Assembly: GCF_024172085.1 (NCBI RefSeq)
Contig: NZ_JAMZDZ010000001.1
Span: 3,782,001-3,846,000, forward strand
DNA: 64,000 nt
Source: Hamadaea flava
GTDB lineage: Bacteria; Actinomycetota; Actinomycetes; Mycobacteriales; Micromonosporaceae
Direction of reading: 5' to 3'
The notes under the pieces are model-generated. The model worked only from the letters and a program-made list of their open reading frames with translations, made no database searches and was not told the DNA's origin. Both the position numbers and the translations under genes were made by a program. This document shows positions 53,182-64,000 of the stretch, piece after piece (the stretch's first letter is position 1; every line of letters starts with the position of its first letter).

Positions 53182-53204
53182 CCGCTCAGCCGCCCGGCCG
53201 TCCA

Positions 53205-53330
53205 CTCAGGAGCGCTGGCAGAAGGCTCCGCTCACGGGCGCTGCCAGACGGTTCCGCTCAGGAGCGCTGCCAGACGGTTCCGCTCACGGGCGCCGCCAGA
53301 CGGTTCTGCTCAGGAGCGCTGCCAGACGGT
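53205..53330. repeat. 26-bp tandem repeat, about 4.8 copies
   Basis: Units start at 53205, 53231, 53257, 53283 and 53309. They alternate CTCAGGAGCGCTG and CTCACGGGCGC(C/T)G starts and share CAGACGGTTCCG-type ends. The last unit is the 3' end of the next gene on the minus strand, including its stop. Confidence 0.9.
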
Positions 53331-54443
53331 GTAGTGGAAGACCAGGTCGGGCGTGACGCTGTCGGGGGCCCGGAGCACCGTGAGCAGCACGGTCCGGCCC
53401 GCATCGGTGGCCACGCAGATCGACGCGCCCGGCATCAGCGCGTTCACCGGCCCGGCCTGGCTGTCCCATTGGTCCGGCGGGGACTGCGTACAGCGTTCGG
53501 CAGTCTCGGGACCGGTGCCGCCGAGGATGGACACCCCCTTCGGCGCGCTGATCTTCAGGCCCCGCTCACTCAGTCGCGCGTCCCAGCCCGGTACCTCCGG
53601 TCCGACGGTCATCGTCTCGAAGTCCATGCTCTGCTCGTCGGGCAGCGTCGCGTCGCCGGTTCGGAGCACCGTCCAGCCGCCGCCCCCACGTGTCGTCAGC
53701 GTCGTCAGCCCAGTGCCTTCGCCACTCGGCAGGTCGGTCGGCGGCCCGGTCGGCACGCCCGTCGGTTCCGGTGAGGTCGCCGACGACGCCGCCAGGTCTC
53801 GAATCGTCGTGGTGATCGCGCCCGCGACGACCAGCCCGACGATCACGACCAGCACGACCGCCAGCGCCCGCAGCGGCCAGCTCCCGGACAGGATCGCGGG
53901 CGGCACCAACGCTGCCAGCCCGCCCCTCGGTTCCGCCCGCCCCGGCGCAGCGGCGGCCGAGCCAGGCCCAGGCCGGTCAGCGGCAGGCCGGTGCGTATCG
54001 GGTGACTCGGCAGCAAGCGGTTCGGCGCCTGACGGTTCAGCCGGCAATCGCCGGTCGGCTGACGGCTTAACCGCTGAAGGCTCGACTACCGAGGGCTCAG
54101 CAACTGGGGGCCTGGTCGCTTGGCGCGCGAGCGCTGAGCGTTCGGTTGCGGCAGACACCGGCAGTTCGGCCTCGGTGGCGATCCGCCGCCACGCTGCCCG
54201 CCACCGGTCGACCTCGTCCTCCGGCAGCCCGCACGCCCGCGCCAGCGCCTCGACCACCTCCGACCGCGGCAACGTCTCCCGCGCGAGGATCGCGGTGAGC
54301 GTACTGCGGGGCAACGCGCCACCCGCGGCCTTCTCCAGTGCGCGGTAGCCCAGTCCCGACGCCCGCTTCAGACCGCGCATCGCGGCCACGAACTCCCCAG
54401 TGGTACGCGCAACGGCCGGATCCGGCCAACCGGCGTTGTCCAT
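53310..54443 (-). CDS. HTH-domain membrane protein
   Basis: 377 aa. Residues about 12-95 are an XRE-type helix-turn-helix region ('LGYRALEKAAGGALPRSTLTAIL', 'EVVEALARACGLPEDEVDRW'). A low-complexity linker with PSA/EPS repeats runs to about 175. One transmembrane helix is present (ALAVVLVVIVGLVVAGAI), then a Pro/Thr linker and an extracytoplasmic domain with 'GISI'-type strands and two Cys (AERCTQ, ASICVA). The topology is RodZ-like: DNA- or protein-binding inside, sensing outside. No RodZ sequence match is claimed. The last codons, TVWQRS-stop, belong to the tandem repeat. Confidence 0.75.
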   Translation of the reverse strand: MDNAGWPDPAVARTTGEFVAAMRGLKRASGLGYRALEKAAGGALPRSTLTAILARETLPRSEVVEALARACGLPEDEVDRWRAAWRRIATEAELPVSAATERSALARQATRPPVAEPSVVEPSAVKPSADRRLPAEPSGAEPLAAESPDTHRPAADRPGPGSAAAAPGRAEPRGGLAALVPPAILSGSWPLRALAVVLVVIVGLVVAGAITTTIRDLAASSATSPEPTGVPTGPPTDLPSGEGTGLTTLTTRGGGGWTVLRTGDATLPDEQSMDFETMTVGPEVPGWDARLSERGLKISAPKGVSILGGTGPETAERCTQSPPDQWDSQAGPVNALMPGASICVATDAGRTVLLTVLRAPDSVTPDLVFHYTVWQRS

Positions 54444-54494: not shown

Positions 54495-55154
54495 TCAGAA
54501 GAGGGTCAGCTCGTCCTTGACGAAGCCCCGTAGCCGGTCGTAGTCCACGACGACGCAACGGATGCCCCGGTCCTCGGCGAGCACCCGGGCCTGGGGCTTG
54601 ATCTCCTGCGCCGCGAAGATCCCGGCGACCGGGGCCAACAGCGGGTCGCGGTTCATCAGCTCGAGGTAGCGGGTGAGCTGCTCCACCCCGTCGATCTCGC
54701 CACGCCGCTTGATCTCGACTGCGACGTGCGCCCCGCCGCCGTCCCGGCAGAGCAGGTCGACCGGGCCGATCGCGGTCATGTGCTCCCGGCGGACGAGCGA
54801 GTAGCCGATCCCGAAGGTCTCGGGCTGAGCGGCGAGCAGCTGCTGGAGATGCGCCTCTACGCCGTCCTTCTGGAGACCCGGGTCGATGCCCAGCTCGTGC
54901 GAGCTGTCGCTGAAGACCTCCTCCAGGGTGATCCGCAGCTCCTCGCCCGCCTTGTTGACCACGCGCCAGACGCCGTCGTTCTCGGCGAGCTTGCAGGGCG
55001 GGCTCATCCAGTTCAGCGGCTTGTACGCGCGATCGTCGGCGTGGATGGAGACCGACCCGTCCGCCTTCACCATGATCAACCGGGTGGCACTCGGCAGATG
55101 CGCCGCGAGTCGTCCGACATAGTCCACTGAACACCGAGCAATCACCAATCGCAC
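54495..55154 (-). CDS. nucS: Mismatch-directed endonuclease NucS
   Basis: 219 aa, the normal length. The N-terminal DNA-binding domain begins '[20 protein letters not shown]' and contains '[22 protein letters not shown]'-type sequence in family order. The RecB-like nuclease core has PVDLLCRD (metal Asp), VEIKRR (ExK) and '[12 protein letters not shown]'. The C-terminal DELTLF resembles a sliding-clamp-binding QLxLF motif. NucS makes double-strand cuts at mismatches in actinobacteria lacking MutS/MutL. It is divergent from the DUF4126 gene. Confidence 0.94.
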
Positions 55155-55210
55155 GATGCGAGCCTATCGTCTGTCCTGCGGGACTGGATTCGGCCTGGCA
55201 TCCTGAAGTC

Positions 55211-55828
55211 GTGCTTGAAGCCCTCACCGGGACGGGCCTGGCCGGGGCGGCCGGGCTCAACGCCTACATCCCGCTCCTGGCGATCGGCCTGCTCGACCGG
55301 TACACCAACCTGATCACCCTGCCCGACAGCTGGAAGTGGCTGAGCAACGGCTGGGTCCTGATCATCCTGGCGGTCCTGCTCGCGGTCGAGCTGGTGGCCG
55401 ACAAGGTGCCGCTGGTCGATCACGCCAACGACGTCATCCAGACGGTCGTCCGCCCCACCGCCGGCGGCCTGGCGTTCACCGCCGGCTCGACGTCGGAGAC
55501 GGTGACCGTCACCGACCCGGGGAGCTTCTTCGAGTCCAAGCAATGGGTTCCGATGCTGATCGGGATCATCCTGGCCGGGACGGTGCACCTGACCAAGGCA
55601 GCAGCCCGCCCGGTGGTCAACACGCTGACCCTCGGCTTCGGGACGCCGGTCGTGTCGACCGCCGAGGACGCCACCAGCGTCACTCTCTCCGTGGTCGCGA
55701 TCATCATCCCGGTCCTGGTGCTGTTGTTCATCGGCCTGTTCATCTGGCTCATGTGGTGGGTGGTCACCCGGCGACGGCGGCGGGCCCGGGCTCGAGCGGC
55801 GGCGGGGGCCACGCAGTACACGCAGTAA
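55211..55828 (+). CDS. DUF4126 membrane protein
   Basis: 205 aa from GTG 55211. The starting 'LTGTGLAGAAGLNAYIPLLAIGL' and then 'VELVADKVPLVDHANDVIQTVVRP' identify the DUF4126 family. Four to five transmembrane helices and a basic C-terminus. Function unknown. The gap to nucS is 56 bp, so the two may share a control region. Confidence 0.82.
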   Translation: MLEALTGTGLAGAAGLNAYIPLLAIGLLDRYTNLITLPDSWKWLSNGWVLIILAVLLAVELVADKVPLVDHANDVIQTVVRPTAGGLAFTAGSTSETVTVTDPGSFFESKQWVPMLIGIILAGTVHLTKAAARPVVNTLTLGFGTPVVSTAEDATSVTLSVVAIIIPVLVLLFIGLFIWLMWWVVTRRRRRARARAAAGATQYTQ

Positions 55829-55858: not shown

Positions 55859-56944
55859 GTGCGTACCCGTTTTGCCGCGATCGTGACGATTGCCGTGGCT
55901 GTGCTGGCTCTGCCGGAAGCGGCGTACGCCGCCGCCAACGGCAGCTACGCCGAGTGGTCGCGGTCCGGCAGCAGCGGAGCCTGGCAGGCCACCGGTACGC
56001 CGGCCGCCGGCTTCCCGGTCGCCCAGGTCGCCTCGAACGCCTCCACGGTGGCCGTTCCGTCCGGCGCGAACACCTTCCTCGGCCCGCAGACGCCGCCGGG
56101 GCAGGCGTACGGCAGCTCGCAGGGACGCACGTATCTGAACGTCAGCACCGCGACGGGCTTCGACACCTCGACGACGACGGTCACCTTCGACTCGGCGACT
56201 CCAGCGAAGAACTGGGCGTTCGTGATCGGCGACCTCGACGCCGACACCCTGACGATCTCGGCCACCGACGGCGACGGCGACCCGGTCTCCCCCGCCGATC
56301 TCGGGTTCCAGGGCGCGTTCAACTATTGCGCGTACGCGCCGAAGCCGGCCGGGTGCACCGGGCCGGGACCGTTCACCGACCTGCCGACGTGGTCGGCCGA
56401 CACCAGCACGCTCGTCGGCAACACCCTGGACACCTTCGGGGCGGCGGCCTGGTTCCAGCCGACGACCGCGATCAAGACGCTGACCCTCCGCTTCTCCCGG
56501 CTGATCGGGGCGCCCGTCTACCAGCTCTGGCTCGCCGCCAAGGCCGTGCCGGTCGTCGTCCCCGTCGCCGGCGTGACCGAGACGTGTCCGGCCGCCGTCA
56601 ACCTGCATACGGCCGATGGCACGCCGATCGTCGGCGGCGACGGTAAGCCGATCACGACCACGACGGGCCCGGACGGGACAGCCACCTTCGACGCCGTCGC
56701 CGACGGCACCTACCAGCTGCACATGCCGAAACCGACCTGCGGCAAGACGGTCAAGGACCCGTACTACACGATCGTCGTGGACACCAGCAAGGGCCCGGTC
56801 AAGGTGCCGGCCGGAACCTTCGTGCTCGACGTGCCGGAGCTGGCGAACACCGGTCAGCACACCGCCCGGCTGCTCGTCGCCGGGGCGATCATCCTGGTCT
56901 CGGGCGCCGTGCTCGTCGTCGCCGGGCGGCGGCGTACACGCTGA
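55859..56944 (+). CDS. Sortase-anchored surface protein with LAxTG signal
   Basis: 361 aa from GTG 55859. Signal peptide about 1-24, cleavage near AYAAA. Residues about 25-235 form a beta-rich adhesin-like domain with DxDxD-like stretches (DLDADTL, DGDGDP). Residues about 240-320 are a collagen-binding-B/prealbumin-like domain. The C-terminus has LANTG, a hydrophobic helix (LLVAGAIILVSGAVLVVA) and GRRRTR, a complete class E sortase signal. The sortase itself is not in the window. It would be covalently attached to the cell wall. Confidence 0.85.
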   Translation: MRTRFAAIVTIAVAVLALPEAAYAAANGSYAEWSRSGSSGAWQATGTPAAGFPVAQVASNASTVAVPSGANTFLGPQTPPGQAYGSSQGRTYLNVSTATGFDTSTTTVTFDSATPAKNWAFVIGDLDADTLTISATDGDGDPVSPADLGFQGAFNYCAYAPKPAGCTGPGPFTDLPTWSADTSTLVGNTLDTFGAAAWFQPTTAIKTLTLRFSRLIGAPVYQLWLAAKAVPVVVPVAGVTETCPAAVNLHTADGTPIVGGDGKPITTTTGPDGTATFDAVADGTYQLHMPKPTCGKTVKDPYYTIVVDTSKGPVKVPAGTFVLDVPELANTGQHTARLLVAGAIILVSGAVLVVAGRRRTR

Positions 56945-57970: not shown

Positions 57971-58002
57971 GATATGCCCAGAGTAGTCGCCAGTGTTGGC
58001 TG

Positions 58003-59253
58003 GTGAGCATGCAGATCGTCCCCCCGCCCGGCGTCACCCGCGCCCTCACCATCCGCTCGATCGTGTACGCCACCGGCTCCGGCGTCTTCCAGGCCGGCAG
58101 CGCCGTCTTCTTCACCCGGTTCCTCGGGCTCTCCGCCACCCAGGTCGGCATCGGGCTGTCCGTCGCGGGCGCGCTGACCGTCCTCGGCTCGGTGCCGCTG
58201 GGCGCGCTCGTCGACCGGTACGGCGCCCGGCGTACCTGGATCGTGGCGGGCGTCGCCGAAGCGCTGCTCTTCCTGGCATACCCGCTGGCGGGGTCGTTCG
58301 CGGCGTTCCTCGGGGTCGCCTGCCTGCTCGCCGTGACCGATCTGCTGACCGGGACGGCCAAGCACGTCTACACCCTGCAGGCGTTGCCGCCAGAGGAGCG
58401 GGTACGCGCCCTGGCGTACCAGCGCAGCGCGCTCAACGTCGGGTTCACCGCGGGGGCCGCCCTGTCCGGGCTCGCCCTCGCCGTCGGCACCCGGTCGGCG
58501 TACCTCACCCTCGTCCTGGTCAACGGCGCGGTCCTGATGGTGACCGCGCTGCTGATCGCCCGCCTGCCGCGGGTGACCGCGATCGGGAGCGCGCCGCGGA
58601 CGTCGGCCTTCGCGGTGCTGAAGGATCGGCCGTTCCTCGCGCTGAGCGGTGTGAACGGGGTGCTCCAGGCGCACCAGACGCTGTTCGGCGTCGTGCTTCC
58701 GCTGTGGACGCTGAGCCGTACGGACGCGCCGGCGGTGGTGGTGCCCGCGCTGTTCATGGTGAACACCGTGCTCGCCGTGGCCTTCCAGGTACGCGCCAGC
58801 CGAGGCAGCGAGACCCCAGCCGGTGCGGCGAAGGCCCTGCGCCGCAGCGGATTCAGCGTGGCCGCCGCGGCGCTGCTGCTCGGCACGGCCGCCCTGACCG
58901 CCGGCCCGCTGACCATCGCCGTGCTCGCGCTGGGGACGGTGATGCTCACGGTGGGCGAATTGACGCAGTCGGCCGGCGCCTGGGGCATCACGGCGAGCGT
59001 GCCGCCGGAGAACCGGCGCGGCGAGTACACCGGATTGTTCCGGCTCGGCGGCCAGGCGCAGCAGTCGCTCGCCCCCGCCGGGCTCACCGTGCTGGCGGTG
59101 AACACCGGCGGCTGGGGCTGGCTCGTCGTCGCGGCGCTGATGCTGGTCGCGGGCCACTACGCGCCGGCCGCCGTGCGGTGGGTGCTACGGACGCCAAGGC
59201 TGGGTGGTGTGACGGAAGACGACCCGGTACCAACCCTCGCCACGGTTCGTTGA
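58003..59253 (+). CDS. Major facilitator superfamily transporter
   Basis: 416 aa from GTG 58003; ATG 58009 is equally possible. Twelve transmembrane helices. MFS motif A-like 'PLGALVDRYGARRTW' lies between helices 2 and 3. It starts 'GVTRALTIRSIVYATGSGVF'. The repressor-like neighbour and its dyad suggest an inducible exporter, perhaps for a drug or metabolite. The C-terminus is cytoplasmic. Confidence 0.88.
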   Translation: MSMQIVPPPGVTRALTIRSIVYATGSGVFQAGSAVFFTRFLGLSATQVGIGLSVAGALTVLGSVPLGALVDRYGARRTWIVAGVAEALLFLAYPLAGSFAAFLGVACLLAVTDLLTGTAKHVYTLQALPPEERVRALAYQRSALNVGFTAGAALSGLALAVGTRSAYLTLVLVNGAVLMVTALLIARLPRVTAIGSAPRTSAFAVLKDRPFLALSGVNGVLQAHQTLFGVVLPLWTLSRTDAPAVVVPALFMVNTVLAVAFQVRASRGSETPAGAAKALRRSGFSVAAAALLLGTAALTAGPLTIAVLALGTVMLTVGELTQSAGAWGITASVPPENRRGEYTGLFRLGGQAQQSLAPAGLTVLAVNTGGWGWLVVAALMLVAGHYAPAAVRWVLRTPRLGGVTEDDPVPTLATVR

Positions 59254-59356
59254 GCTTCGTGAATCGGCGTGTCGCCGTTACGCAACGCTGGAGTCGCGCG
59301 GAATACTAACGGACAAATTGGTGTAAAACTGCACGTATCCACCCCCGGGAGGTGCC

Positions 59357-59617
59357 GTGGCGAGCGTCGCGGAGGTCAAGGCGGCCATTGACGCCGCCAT
59401 GCTGCACGTGCAGGAGAGCCAAGATGCCGTTCGCGCGGCCAACGATCGGCTGGGCGAGGCACAGCTGAGCCTGGCGGTGGCGGTCGAGGGCTCCGGCCAC
59501 GACAACGTCACCGCCGCTCAGGCCGCCCTGGCCCAGGCGACGAACGAGCTCGAGGAATGCCTTACCGCCACCTTGACCGCGGTCGACCAGGCCCAGACAT
59601 ACGTAGCGGGGTTGTGA
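59357..59617 (+). CDS. Small helical-hairpin protein of the FtsK cassette
   Basis: 86 aa from GTG 59357 with a strong GGGAGGTG upstream. It is two long amphipathic helices (about 3-44 and 52-84) joined by the turn EGSGHDN. There is no Trp, no WxG and no YxxxD/E motif, but the size and hairpin plan match WXG100-type secreted proteins. It shares its stop with the start of the next gene (TGATG). It could be a substrate, chaperone or structural part of the cassette. No known family is recognised. Confidence 0.72.
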   Translation: MASVAEVKAAIDAAMLHVQESQDAVRAANDRLGEAQLSLAVAVEGSGHDNVTAAQAALAQATNELEECLTATLTAVDQAQTYVAGL

Positions 59618-60639
59618 TGAGTCTCGTTCAGGATCTCGGCGACCAGCTCCGGATCGTCCGAGAAGACCTGCCCATCGCCGAGGTACGCGCGGCGGCCGAA
59701 CGACTGCGGATGGCCGGCGGGCTGCTCGCCTGGGTCATGCACGCCACCGGCGACCCGCAGCGCGTACCGCAGTTGGGCGGGGCGGCCGACCGCCTCGAAT
59801 CCGCCGCCGGCCTGATGCGTTCGGCGCACGACGCGCTCGACGCGTACGCGTTGGCGCTGGGTCTGGCCGCGGACTCGGTGGGGACCGCGCAGCCATGGGG
59901 CGCCGGCGCACCCTTGGTGCCGACCCAGGGCCGCTCGGCCGACGTGCCGCTGAGCGACTGGTGGGCCGAGCGCGTCCGCACGCTGGCCGCCCGGGACACG
60001 CTCGACGACCTGATCACCTCGGGCAGCACGGAGGACCGGACCGTGCCGGCGGTGCCGGATCGAGGCACCTCACTTCGTTCCGCTGACGATCCGGCGGCGA
60101 CGAGCGTAGACCTCTTGCGCCGCTGCGTCTCCGCGACGCTCGACGAACGCCCGGCCAAGCTGCACCGCGAGCTGGGCTCGGCCGGCCCGGCCGTGGGTCT
60201 CGGCCTCGCCGCGGTCGCCCCGCCCCTGCTGCGGCACCTCGCGGCGGAGCTGGTCGGGCACCCGCCGCGGCTCGAAGATCTGGCGAGGGTACGCCGAGCG
60301 GCCCTGGTCCACACCGGACTGCTGCCGGAGCTGCCCGCGGAGGCGGGCGAGGAGATCGTCGCCCGGATCTGTCACGCGACCCCGCAGCGGCGGACCGAAG
60401 GCTCACCCACGCATCCGGTCGACGCCGCGGCCGCCGTGGTGCTGATCACCGCCGGATTGCTGGCCGCCACCGGCCGGGGCGCGAGCGAACTGCACGCCGT
60501 CGTCGAGGAGGAGCAGCGTCGCCGTAACGCCGCTGCCGACTCGACGATGCGCCGGGCCCTGCGCGTGGGCGACCCGACGCGTCGCCGCAGCGCGGTCGAC
60601 GCGCTCGCCGACGAGACGCCGGTGGGCGGTGCCTCCTGA
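59617..60639 (+). CDS. Helical partner protein of the FtsK cassette
   Basis: 340 aa from ATG 59617; the frame upstream overlaps the small protein and is not used. Residues about 1-95 are helical ('LPIAEVRAAAERLRMAGGLL', 'AADRLESAAGLMRSAHDALD'). A linker with SDWWAERVRTL follows, then a second Ala/Leu-rich helical half to the end (DSTMRRALRVGD). No catalytic motif, signal peptide or membrane helix. It overlaps the ATPase gene by 11 bp, so it is probably a stable partner of that ATPase. Function unknown. Confidence 0.7.
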   Translation: MSLVQDLGDQLRIVREDLPIAEVRAAAERLRMAGGLLAWVMHATGDPQRVPQLGGAADRLESAAGLMRSAHDALDAYALALGLAADSVGTAQPWGAGAPLVPTQGRSADVPLSDWWAERVRTLAARDTLDDLITSGSTEDRTVPAVPDRGTSLRSADDPAATSVDLLRRCVSATLDERPAKLHRELGSAGPAVGLGLAAVAPPLLRHLAAELVGHPPRLEDLARVRRAALVHTGLLPELPAEAGEEIVARICHATPQRRTEGSPTHPVDAAAAVVLITAGLLAATGRGASELHAVVEEEQRRRNAAADSTMRRALRVGDPTRRRSAVDALADETPVGGAS

Positions 60640-63262
60640 TTTCCCGCGGGGACCACTGGTCTCCGCAGTACGCCGGGAGCTCGCCGCCGCGCGGGCTGCC
60701 GCCCGCGCGGCGCTCATGGCGGCGACCGTCGCGCACGCCGAGGCGCAGGCGCAACGGGATGCGGTAGCCGGGCGGAGCCCGGAGCGCCATCGAGCACTGG
60801 AAGGCGAACGGGACGCCCTGATCCAGGCGGCGCAGGAGAAACTGCGCCGGGAGGCGGCCACCGTCACCGAAGCACTGTCGGCACTCGCGGGCACTGCGGC
60901 ACCGGGTGCGGCCGGACAGACCTGGCCTGCCTGGACGGCCACGCCCGGCGTACCGGGGCCTGGGCTGCTGCGCGCCGGCGTGATCGACCACGATCCGCCG
61001 TTGCCTGCGCTCCTGCCCGTCCTGGACGCGGCACACCTGGCCCTGGACGGACCCGATCCGTCCACCCTGGACGGCGTCATCGCCGGGCTGCTGCTTCGCA
61101 TGCTCGGCTCCGTCCCGGCCGGCGGCGTACGCCTCTGGATCTACGACCCGGGTCACCTGGGCGGCGCGCTGGCCGGCTTCGCACCCCTGGCCGCCGCCGA
61201 GATCACCACCTACGTCGGTCCCGGCGGGCTGTCGGCCACCCTCGACGAACTGGCCGCCCAGATCCAGCGCATCAACGAGACGGTCCTCGCCGGGGAACAC
61301 GCCAACGTGGCGGCGGCGGCTCGCGTACTGGGGCGGCGGCCGGAACCCTGGCGGGTGCTGGTGCTGCTCGCCGACTCCACCGACCTGTCGAGCGCCCAGC
61401 AGGCGCAGCTGGATCGCGTCGTCCGGGCGGGCGTCGCCGCCGGCGTCCACGTGATCAGCCGCGGGCTTCCGCTGCCCACTCGGGACGACGTCCAGACCGT
61501 CTCGGTCGTCGACGGGTGGGCCGCGCGGACCAGCCTGACCGGCGATCTGACCGTCCTGCTCGATCCGCCGCCACCGGCCGAACTGGTCACCGGCTTCGCC
61601 AAGGAGCTGGCCGCCGGGCCGCCGCCGGCCACGGTGGACGCCCTGCTCCCGGCCGAGTTCTGGACCGAGTCGTCGGCTCGGCGCCTGTGCGCGCCCATCG
61701 GCGAGGGCACCGAAGGCGACCTGGTCGAGCTGACCCTCGGCGACGATCCCCCGCACGCCCTGATCGGCGGCCCGTCCGGCTCCGGCAAGACCAACCTGCT
61801 CTACTGCTGGCTCGCCGGGCTCACCAGCCGATACTCCCCCGAGGAACTCGAACTCCATCTGCTCGACTTCAAGGAAGGCGTCTCGTTCGCGCGGTTCGCT
61901 CCCTCGCCGCGCGATCCGAGCTGGCTTCCCCAGGTACGCCTCGTCGGCGTGAACATCAACTCGGACCGTGAGTTCGGCCTGGCCCTGCTGCGTCATCTGG
62001 CCGCCGAGCTGAAGCGGCGGGCGTCGGCGGCCAAGAAGCACGAGGCCACCAAGCTGGCCGAGCTGCGCGCCGAGGACCCCGAGGGACACTGGCCCCGGAT
62101 CGTGGCCGTCATCGACGAGTTCCAGGTCCTGCTGGGCGAACGGGACGCGGTCACCACCGAGGCGGTCGCCCTGCTGGAAGACCTCGCCCGCCGAGGCCGG
62201 TCCCAGGGCATCCACCTCGTCCTGGCCAGCCAGGACGTGACCGGCATCGAGGCGCTGTGGGGCCGGTCGGCGCTGGTCGCCCAGTTCACGCTGCGGATCG
62301 CGTTGCCGAAGGCCCGCCGAATCCTGGCCGAGACCAACCTCGCCGCCGAACTCATCCCGCGTCATCACGCCGTCGTGAACGCCGACTCCGGCGCGGTCGG
62401 GGCGAACCAGATCGTCAAACTGCCCGACGCCGGAGACCGTACGCGCTGGCAGGAGATCCAGACGCAGTTCTGGACGCTGACCGACGCGCTGCTCGACCCG
62501 CCCCGGCTGTTCGACGGCGAAGCCGTGCCCGCCTTCCCGGTGCTGCCCGGTACGCCGCCCGACTTCGCCAAGGACGGCGCGGTCGCCCTGCTCGGCGAGA
62601 CCATCGACGTCGCCCGACGACCGGCGACGTTGCGCCTGACCCGCAGCCCTGGGCGCAATCTGGCCGTCCTCGGCACGCGTACGCCGGAAGCCTGCGCGAT
62701 CCTCACCTCGGCCGGGCTGACGCTGGCCCGCCAGCACGAGCCGGGAACGGCGGACTTCGTCGTCGCCTGCCTCGACCCGGACGCCCAGCCGGCCGCGAAG
62801 GCGCTCGCGGTCGAACTGCCCGGATGCGTCTGGCACGACGAGGACAGTCTGCTGCCGATGCTGACCCAGCTGGCCCAGCTGGACACCGACCGGCCCCGCT
62901 ACGTCTTCGTCTTCGCCCTCGACGCGGCCGCTCCGCAGCTCGCGGCGAAACGAGGGGTCGGCGAGCCGACCGGTCACGACCTGCTGCGCACCGTGCTGAA
63001 CCGGGGCCCCGAGCGGCGTACGCACCTGCTCGGCTGGTGGCGGTCGGTGCCCCGGCTCCGCGACGACCTCGGCGGCATCGCCGCCCGGCTCGACTCCATC
63101 GGCGCGTGGATCGCGTTGGACGTGCACGGTCAGGAGCTGGCCCCGCTGTCGGCGCAGCCCGGCGGCCCCGCCTGGTATCCCCGGCCGCACCGGGGGCTGT
63201 TCTTCGACCGGGCGACCCATCGCGCGCCGGAAATCCTCATCCCTTACGAGGTCGACCTGTGA
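60629..63262 (+). CDS. FtsK/SpoIIIE-family ATPase with degenerate flanking modules
   Basis: 877 aa from GTG 60629. Residues about 10-100 are coiled coil. About 110-350 resemble an FtsK module without Walker motifs ('[19 protein letters not shown]', '[19 protein letters not shown]'). About 365-600 are an active module: Walker [10 protein letters not shown] near 380-388, '[15 protein letters not shown]', Walker [10 protein letters not shown] near 494, and '[18 protein letters not shown]'. A third module, about 640-860, again lacks Walker motifs ('[20 protein letters not shown]'). No transmembrane helices. It differs from FtsK DNA translocases, which have a membrane domain and gamma domain, and recalls EccC. 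Confidence 0.86.
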
Positions 63263-63882
63263 GCGCCACGGAATATCGTGCCCTGGTGGCCGAACTGGTC
63301 GCCGCGACCCGCCGCCGCGACGTCGCCGTCACGGCCGCCACACAGTCCTACCTGGACGGTGTAGCCGTCGTCGACCAGGACCTGGCCGCCGCCGGCCGGA
63401 TCCACCTGGCCTGCGCCGAAGTCGTGGCGACCCGGGAGGCCACCGTCGCCGACCTCGACGGCCAAGCCGACCGGATCTGGACCGAACTACTGGTGGGCCA
63501 TCGTTGGCGCGCGCGACGGGCAGGCCCGCTGCCGGCCCCCGCCGCCGGAGCGGGCACCGGCGACCCGGTCGCCCTCATCGCCTCCGCCGCCGCCCGCGTC
63601 GCCCGCGCTCGCCGTGGAGCCGAAGCACTTCCGTTGCCGCTGCTGCTCTCGCTCGCCCTCATCGGCGGCATCGGCGCGGTCGCCGTCGGCCTCCTGGCGG
63701 GCGGAGTCTCCGGTACGCCCTGGCTCAGCTGGCCGCTGTTCATGCTCGCCCCGTTCGCCGGTATCCCGTTCGCCGCCCGATGGGTGGACTACTGGGCGGC
63801 CACGCGCCTCGACACCGGCGCGATCGGGCTCACCGTGCTCGGCGGCATGCTCGCCACCTGCCTCGTCGCCGTCTTCCGCTGA
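63259..63882 (+). CDS. Coiled-coil membrane protein of the FtsK cassette
   Basis: 207 aa from GTG 63259 (GTGA overlap with the ATPase). The first 120 residues are charged and helical ('[20 protein letters not shown]'). The last 75 hold three hydrophobic helices ([20 protein letters not shown], then [15 protein letters not shown], then '[17 protein letters not shown]'). It is the only membrane part of the cassette and may tether the ATPase. No family is recognised. Confidence 0.7.
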
Positions 63883-64000
63883 CGCGCTGCGTTGGCTGCG
63901 GCGTTGTGGGTGGGCGCTGCCGAAAAGCGCACCGAAGCGGAGGGGTGGCCGGCTCCGCGAGTCGACTTCAGTCGATTTCCATGATCAGCGGAAGAATCGC
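63883..64000. other. Right-edge region
   Basis: No complete gene. On the minus strand an open frame enters from the right edge and stops at 63968-63970, ending ...LPLIMEID. It could be the C-terminus of a gene lying mostly outside the window, but ten residues are too few to name. Confidence 0.25.

Follow-up and report, generated by a model that had tools for sequence, protein, structure and literature searches.

A four-gene cassette of Hamadaea flava with an EccC-like ATPase, and the case for a stand-alone type VII-like machine

What does an FtsK-class ATPase do when it is encoded with two helical proteins and a small membrane protein, far from any ESX (type VII) secretion locus? The question is raised by a four-gene cassette in a 64,000-nucleotide stretch of the Hamadaea flava chromosome (contig NZ_JAMZDZ010000001.1, positions 3,782,001 to 3,846,000; hereafter, the window), itself an 8.86-Mb single contig. 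An earlier note, made from the letters of the window and here called the sequence-only reading, had compared the cassette to a minimal type VII apparatus and proposed a transport, DNA-handling, or conflict machine. Among these, protein handling proved better supported than DNA handling or defense. We propose that the four gene products, labeled A, B, C, and D in 5′-to-3′ order, may form a stand-alone, ESX-independent, type VII-like machine that moves or assembles proteins, a reading to which we assign a probability of roughly 0.57. That the machine exports proteins across the membrane is less certain.

The motor protein C and its membrane partner

The four genes lie on the forward strand of the window at the positions first read for them, and their overlaps of 1, 11, and 4 bp were recovered on re-reading. 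Gene A (59357..59617; 86 amino acids, aa) encodes, according to family profiles and alignment, a probable WXG100-type helical hairpin without the WxG motif. Gene B (59617..60639; 340 aa) encodes an N-terminal hairpin, probably related to A, a low-confidence linker, and a conserved C-terminal helical domain; gene C (60629..63262; 877 aa), a tandem FtsK ATPase that resembles EccC and has no membrane helices; and gene D (63259..63882; 207 aa), an N-terminal coiled coil followed by C-terminal membrane helices, the proposed anchor of C. The ratios of nonsynonymous to synonymous substitution rates (dN/dS) against three Hamadaea relatives were 0.02 to 0.06 for A, 0.12 to 0.30 for B, 0.10 to 0.25 for C, and 0.14 to 0.31 for D. 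Because these values span 0.02 to 0.31, all four are real genes under purifying selection, with A the most constrained. C is 94% identical to two proteins from Hamadaea metagenome-assembled genomes.

Among 551 confirmed relatives of C, the best 80 supplied the homologues; their surroundings are referred to as the named loci, and their partner genes were sought with iterated profiles. Length-limited sets were available for C and D in 76/80 loci each, and the alignments used for folding comprised 51/80 C homologues and 42/57 B homologues. The assignment of C to the FtsK class held (Pfam FtsK_SpoIIIE, E value of 2.3e-17). An inactive RecA/FtsK-like domain resembling the DUF domain of EccC (approximately residues 88 to 332; 60890..61624, forward strand) is followed by an active central domain, whose Walker A motif (residues 381 to 388; 61769..61792, forward strand) has seven of eight residues invariant in the alignment and whose Walker B acidic pair, D496-E497 (62114..62119, forward strand), is likewise invariant, as are K387 and T388. 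The third domain, an inactive FtsK-like one, is predicted by the AlphaFold2 model at approximately residues 650 to 877 (62576..63259, forward strand), and a P-loop was not seen by eye in either flanking domain. The model also places a long helix at residues 8 to 90, forming a helical stalk. No FHA domain was matched in C by Pfam, and a hydropathy scan found no membrane segment in C or in any of the 76 full-length homologues. By calculation, C resembles EccC as a tandem FtsK ATPase: one of its motor domains is active, the other two are inactive, and it has no membrane segment.

The resemblance to type VII ATPases, first noted from the sequence, is borne out by solved structures, NCBIfam ranking, and phylogeny. 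EccC/EssC proteins rank first among solved structures, with EccC 4nh0 the best match. When the whole C model was compared in Foldseek with the cytoplasmic part of EccC, the E value was 1e-25 and the template modeling (TM) score 0.38, over 941 columns with gaps, versus 1.9e-8 for the best FtsK motor; KaiC rows in the same output (TM score, 0.13) were taken to reflect the shared ATPase fold only. Against NCBIfam, C matched EccCa at 8.4e-26 and FtsK (NF007615) at only 0.035, and a clear match to a chromosomal translocase, an outcome that the sequence-only reading had set against itself, was not found. The genome's own FtsK, used as a control, matched the FtsK model at 3.1e-123 and EccCa at 2.4e-31. 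The EccCa score of C was 90.9 bits, below the cut-off of 509, whereas two of the genome's own EccCs scored 867 and 956 bits. In a tree that included four of the five own EccCs (the fifth was missed by the profile step), the C family was separate from those four and from the own FtsK.

These results bear on the possibility that C is a specialized FtsK-type DNA translocase, anchored by D and acting when these filamentous bacteria form septa or spores, with A and B as its regulators. The arrangement of an FtsK-like protein with a small membrane protein is shared with Streptomyces SffA-SmeA. That system was set apart by description, since accessible accounts report SffA only in streptomycetes and two other genera, Kitasatospora and Catenulispora. 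C is nearest to EccC/EssC rather than to FtsK, the genome has its own chromosomal FtsK, and both the hairpin partners and the Hsp70 association of distant relatives, described below, point to proteins. A link to nucS is limited to part of the clade and looks like inherited gene order. We consider the DNA-handling explanation unlikely.

For D, the predicted coiled coil and membrane helices stood, with the qualification that the window copy has two strong membrane segments (residues 128 to 146 and 188 to 206) and a weaker middle one; the hydropathy scan found three segments in 66/76 D family members of at least 195 aa. The reported lack of EccB, EccD, and mycosin genes also holds for the locus: the nearest eccD is 1.18 Mb away, the nearest eccB 1.26 Mb, and the nearest mycosin gene 0.36 Mb, with a subtilase gene scoring below the mycosin cut-off 0.27 Mb from the cassette.

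The same genome carries a paralogous cassette near 5.05 Mb (L010, 7594 to 11295), whose products are a 902-aa ATPase, a membrane protein with a coiled coil, and a hairpin of 86 aa; the gene that comes next matches an AbiEi antitoxin weakly. The A profile matched the paralogue hairpin at 7.7e-6 in a smaller search, and a whole-genome run found only A of the window. Across related loci, the A profile was positive in 4/21 paralogue loci and 15/20 wider loci, and the B and D profiles gave a convincing E value in none of the 21 and 20, respectively. The paralogous cassette lies approximately 15 to 17 kb from an ESX eccC, and a C paralogue lies approximately 12 to 19 kb from an EccC-length match in six other genomes of the family (G004, G006, G009, G021, G023, and G033), as would be expected if C-D and A-B fed or regulated a resident type VII secretion system. 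The window cassette, however, has no eccB or eccD closer than some 1.2 Mb. Conserved, unrelated genes resembling hpt, ftsH, and folE also surround the paralogue, so that inherited gene order alone may explain the short distance, and we regard an accessory role for ESX as improbable, more so than DNA handling.

Linkage, co-inheritance, and surroundings of the four genes

The genes are not rarely together, which the sequence-only reading had named as grounds for giving up a joint machine. D is directly 3′ of C in all 80 named loci, and A-B is upstream of C in 57/80. Of the 23 loci without A-B before C, 5 are cut by contig edges (L107, L121, L122, L130, and L139) and 18, all Actinoplanes-like, contain C-D only, with nucS near in 17/18. 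Four genomes with a C-D-only locus carry a second, complete A-B-C-D locus (L083/L145, L091/L125, L092/L144, and L093/L131). In the window, two genes at 54495-55828 that look, from their sequences rather than from a family scan, to be nucS-like and DUF4126-like lie near the cassette; they are also near C in 31/80 and 32/80 loci.

Co-inheritance was assessed by profile searches of 61 relative genomes, 37 of them from the same family, with thresholds of E ≤1e-10 for B and E ≤1e-5 for A. C proteins of at least 640 bits were counted as close, a cut chosen after the table was inspected. A was present in 27/61 genomes and B in the identical 27, all of them same-family carriers of a close C. Within the family, A, B, and a close C thus occur together in 27/37 genomes, and all three are missing from the other 10, two of which are only 69 and 80% complete. 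The chance of such agreement is 1/C(37,10), or 2.9e-9, if relatedness is ignored, and the true figure is weaker. One genome of another family (G050) has a C protein of 47% identity with an 86-aa hairpin upstream that the A profile does not reach at 1e-5.

A single genome, G031, is particularly informative because A-B (L226, 7972 to 9068) and C-D are on separate contigs and both are kept. The A-B pair is more than 28 kb from the ends of its contig, and C-D is at the nucS locus on the other; the 18 kb read around A-B contain no called ATPase gene, and no C match is listed there. Although it comes from one clear genome, the inheritance together of separated A-B and C-D is the best evidence for a joint function.

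Several features define the operon and its neighborhood. A ribosome-binding site graded as good, GGGAGGT, precedes gene A (59347..59353, forward strand; read directly in the sequence). The gene called downstream of D is on the opposite strand (L009, 8057 to 10036), so D is most likely the last gene of the operon. No sigma-70-like promoter was found at 58000-64000, where 0.1 would be expected by chance and the result is therefore little informative; the sole terminator-like site in that interval, where 0.9 would be expected, falls inside gene C. Elsewhere in the window, a 26-nucleotide direct repeat unit is repeated in tandem at 53201-53330, adjoining the end of an open reading frame at 53310-54443. 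A secreted-looking protein is encoded at 55859-56944, with a C-terminal LANTG, a hydrophobic stretch, and basic residues that by eye resemble a sortase substrate.

The hairpin proteins A and B

The lack of a WxG motif in A was confirmed, and its hairpin shape is drawn from relatives rather than from a model of A itself. An alignment of 22/57 A homologues shows invariant residues where the hairpin presumably turns (G45-S46) and at the extreme C terminus (Y82 and the last residue, L86). The helical nature of B was upheld by its AlphaFold2 model, with a mean predicted local distance difference test (pLDDT) score of 79.9. The modeled hairpin domain comprises residues 20 to 80 (59674..59856, forward strand), with helices at 20 to 44 and 51 to 80; Y77 and G82 at its end are invariant and W39 before the turn is nearly so, an end pattern similar to the C-terminal end of A. 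The C-terminal helical domain of B, residues 163 to 331, is conserved. No significant PDB match was found for the B model (best E value, 1.7).

To place the hairpins, the A proteins were grouped as those of the window family, the paralogue, the Hsp70-linked relatives, and a family labeled f32, which by content rather than name is probably Frankiaceae. The groups align end to end over 86 to 87 residues, and hhalign gave 97% for window-paralogue, 93% for window-f32, 82% for paralogue-Hsp70, 60% for f32-Hsp70, and 26% for window-Hsp70. The pooled A profile matched the genome's own WXG100 set at an E value of 9e-4 (23%), versus 0.067 for the best of 40 column shuffles and 0.058 for the reversed profile. 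It matched the N terminus of B at 1.3e-4 (54%; best of 40 shuffles, 0.084), compared with 0.11 and 0.025 for the coiled coils of D and C, respectively. The Pfam WXG100 model matches 19/23 A proteins at E ≤1, with a best value of 5e-5, and small hairpins beside two other C relatives come nearer to WXG100, just below its cut-off (L219, 1.6e-5; L224, 4.6e-5). From these profile comparisons, A is probably a WXG100-type hairpin, and the N terminus of B is possibly one as well, with less certainty than A. The earlier statement that the cassette is without WXG100 proteins thus stands for the motif and the curated cut-off but perhaps not for the fold family. By analogy, A and B may act as a pair, as EsxB and EsxA do.

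Distant relatives, known systems, and the proposed machine

The gene neighborhoods of more distant relatives suggest what the motor may handle. In total, 46 regions (20 + 20 + 6) were analyzed, picked by match and hence nonrandom. By Pfam, an Hsp70 gene adjoins the ATPase gene in 6/46 (L164, L184, L185, L186, L217, and L218). A DnaJ domain passes the cut-off in L185 and L217; in L218 it scores below the cut-off, and GrpE was also matched there (3.6e-14). No DnaJ domain was matched at 0.01 in the tetratricopeptide repeat (TPR) protein of L164, L184, or L186. A further region, L175, has a DnaJ-TPR gene, and Hsp70 was not seen there. By eye, the HPD tripeptide is absent from the J-like domains. 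A Rhodococcus plasmid (L222) is annotated in the order Hsp70, TPR (DnaJ, 1.3e-8), GrpE, FtsK-like, 203-aa protein, and 86-aa protein, and the last of these matches the A profile at 1.7e-22. After the hairpin gene, the same plasmid encodes a 272-aa protein (L222, 10181 to 10999) with an N terminus that is hairpin-like by eye and with no Pfam or PDB match. On a Helicobacter plasmid (L224, 3263 to 7665), the C relative stands with WXG100-like, WHH/colicin-DNase-like, and SMI1/KNR4 immunity genes. The chaperone- and toxin-linked relatives share approximately 30 to 35% identity with C, in many cases over only a portion of its length. Protein cargo is favored because these distant relatives adjoin Hsp70 genes or a nuclease gene with its immunity gene, neighbors that suggest, at that distance, a protein substrate.

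Some of the same relatives bear on a role in conflict or defense, in which C, as an ATPase of the SspH, HerA, or TerY-P kind, would react to invaders and A, B, and D would serve as sensor and anchor. PADLOC models for SspH (1.9e-16) and mad8 (1.3e-15) match the C motor, a plasmid relative from Caballeronia belongs to a TerY-P/CoCoNuT-type locus (VWA-WXG100-FtsK-CARF-VWA-PP2C-kinase), and the Helicobacter plasmid relative adjoins a nuclease and its immunity gene. The PADLOC matches, from a scan of the cassette only, are however restricted to the motor domain, and A, B, and D have none at E ≤1. The cassette contains no nuclease, kinase, VWA, or CARF gene and is kept across genera with housekeeping neighbors. 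Its plasmid relatives are distant: 14 of 72,556 plasmid records match C at E ≤1e-15, none over 80% of its length (best, 77% at 31.5% identity). Of the phage records, 89 match at E ≤1e-5, none over 80% among the matches listed, and none of 76 pattern matches in an IMG/VR scan is a C relative. We judge a defense role to be about as unlikely as DNA handling. A mobile origin of the cassette was rejected, no full-length relative having appeared among the plasmid, phage, and IMG/VR matches listed.

The motor architecture itself has been described before. Zhang et al. (2012; PMC3482391) describe, as apparent "mobile versions of T7SS," solo WXG domains with a distinct, YueA-like ATPase in which only the middle of three HerA/FtsK domains is active. 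The CoCoNuT paper (2024) describes the same three-domain ATPase, notes that it begins with a coiled coil and has no membrane helices, and refers to Anantharaman et al. (2012) for stand-alone forms. C has the features of this class, namely, Walker motifs in the central domain only, an N-terminal coiled coil, and neither an FHA domain nor a membrane helix; a plasmid locus resembling the class is 34% identical to C over 42% of the query. C fits the three-domain ATPase description of the solo WXG and TerY-P/CoCoNuT systems, and its hairpins are at best distant WXG100-type proteins. With the solo WXG systems, as far as these are described, the cassette shares three FtsK-like domains with an active central one and, probably, small WXG-type partners. 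Unlike them, it is actinobacterial and chromosomal, is present in 27/37 family genomes, has hairpins without WxG, and includes D and B. With the TerY-P/CoCoNuT-associated ATPase it shares, again going by the accessible description, a coiled coil in place of the FHA and membrane parts and, probably, a WXG100-like protein without WxG; it differs in lacking VWA, kinase, phosphatase, and nuclease genes and in having D and B.

ESX EccC proteins (Thermomonospora curvata EccC, 4nh0; ESX-5 EccC5) have their ATPase domains in the same order as C (DUF-like, active, inactive) and likewise have hairpin partners. C differs in lacking membrane helices and in having one ATPase domain less, and EccB, EccD, and mycosin are encoded outside the locus. 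The cassette departs from the T7SSa/ESX type on several points: it scores below the EccCa and WXG100 cut-offs, its ATPase has no membrane anchor of its own, and EccB, EccD, and mycosin are absent from it. Garrett et al. (2024; PMC11217815) define eight further subtypes of type VII secretion system, T7SSc to T7SSj, with a membrane-bound ATPase of four predicted NTPase domains. The cassette shares their core of ATPase and hairpin and was set apart by description, no D- or B-like partner appearing in the accessible accounts of these subtypes. The Streptomyces cmd cluster, reported in the text available to comprise five membrane proteins and one ATP/GTP-binding protein, was likewise set apart by description. 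Kaur et al. (2020) present Hsp70-bearing conflict systems, and an A-B-C-D cassette was not found in the accessible part of that work. A lone "eccC" called an FtsK/SpoIIIE family protein in the available text of the Micromonospora lupini genome paper might correspond to the C gene. No description of the actinobacterial A-B-C-D form or of the Hsp70-linked form was found in the open-licence literature, as far as its text was accessible. The architecture of the motor was already noted in 2012 and 2024; new, within the literature searched, is the chromosomal actinobacterial branch with membrane partner D.

The proposed protein-handling machine would work as follows. C would assemble into a ring held at the membrane by D and by its own N-terminal helix, and A and B would pair via their hairpins. 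In ESX systems, the tail of EsxB docks on EccC; the conserved C-terminal tail of A may similarly dock on an inactive ATPase domain of C. Hydrolysis of ATP in the central domain of C would then move or assemble the A-B pair at or through the membrane, with the helical domain of B as cargo or adaptor.

Several observations weigh against this reading. The EccCa model also matches true FtsK, so the EccCa match of C is not specific by itself, and the AlphaFold2 model of C has a predicted TM score (pTM) of 0.46 and renders some of the active domain with low confidence. A lacks both WxG and YxxxD/E, the latter being a signal described for WXG100 proteins in the literature accessible to us. The window A group alone matches WXG100 at 0.024, no better than the C coiled coil at 0.016; the signal of the pooled profile owes much to the paralogue A group (1.9e-4); and A of the window itself scores 13.2 to 13.6 bits against the curated WXG100 cut-off of 27.3. 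The link between A and B is modest (hhalign, 34%; pooled, 54%) and drops to 4 to 6% for the A groups of other families. Neither a signal nor a toxin domain is recognized in B, whose C-terminal domain, instead of varying, is conserved. With at most three membrane helices in D and no eccB or eccD near, there is no evident channel. The B and D profiles found no convincing homologue outside the window's own group, where D-like partners are named by position and appearance only, and C-D stands without adjoining A-B at the 18 loci noted above.

The Hsp70 neighborhoods also raise a broader possibility, which we put forward tentatively and with less confidence than the machine itself: the cassette may belong to type VII-like machines that form a branch of their own and are coupled to chaperones. 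In this branch, an Hsp70 set, joined in some lineages by J-like and GrpE proteins, would hand polypeptides to an EccC-like motor that had lost the ESX channel and relied on a small membrane protein with a coiled coil; WXG-type hairpins would be the dedicated partners of the motor. The Micromonosporaceae form would have lost the chaperones while retaining A and B as a fixed pair, which would have an inherited role in the hyphal way of life.

A motor and a hairpin are common to the type VII systems reported to date. A family-wide system consisting of a motor, hairpins, and one membrane partner would show what this core is capable of without the ESX channel. The co-inheritance of A-B and C-D, even where the operon is split, offers a clean genetic test. 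If confirmed, the Hsp70 association of the distant relatives would connect delivery by chaperones directly to a motor of the FtsK class.

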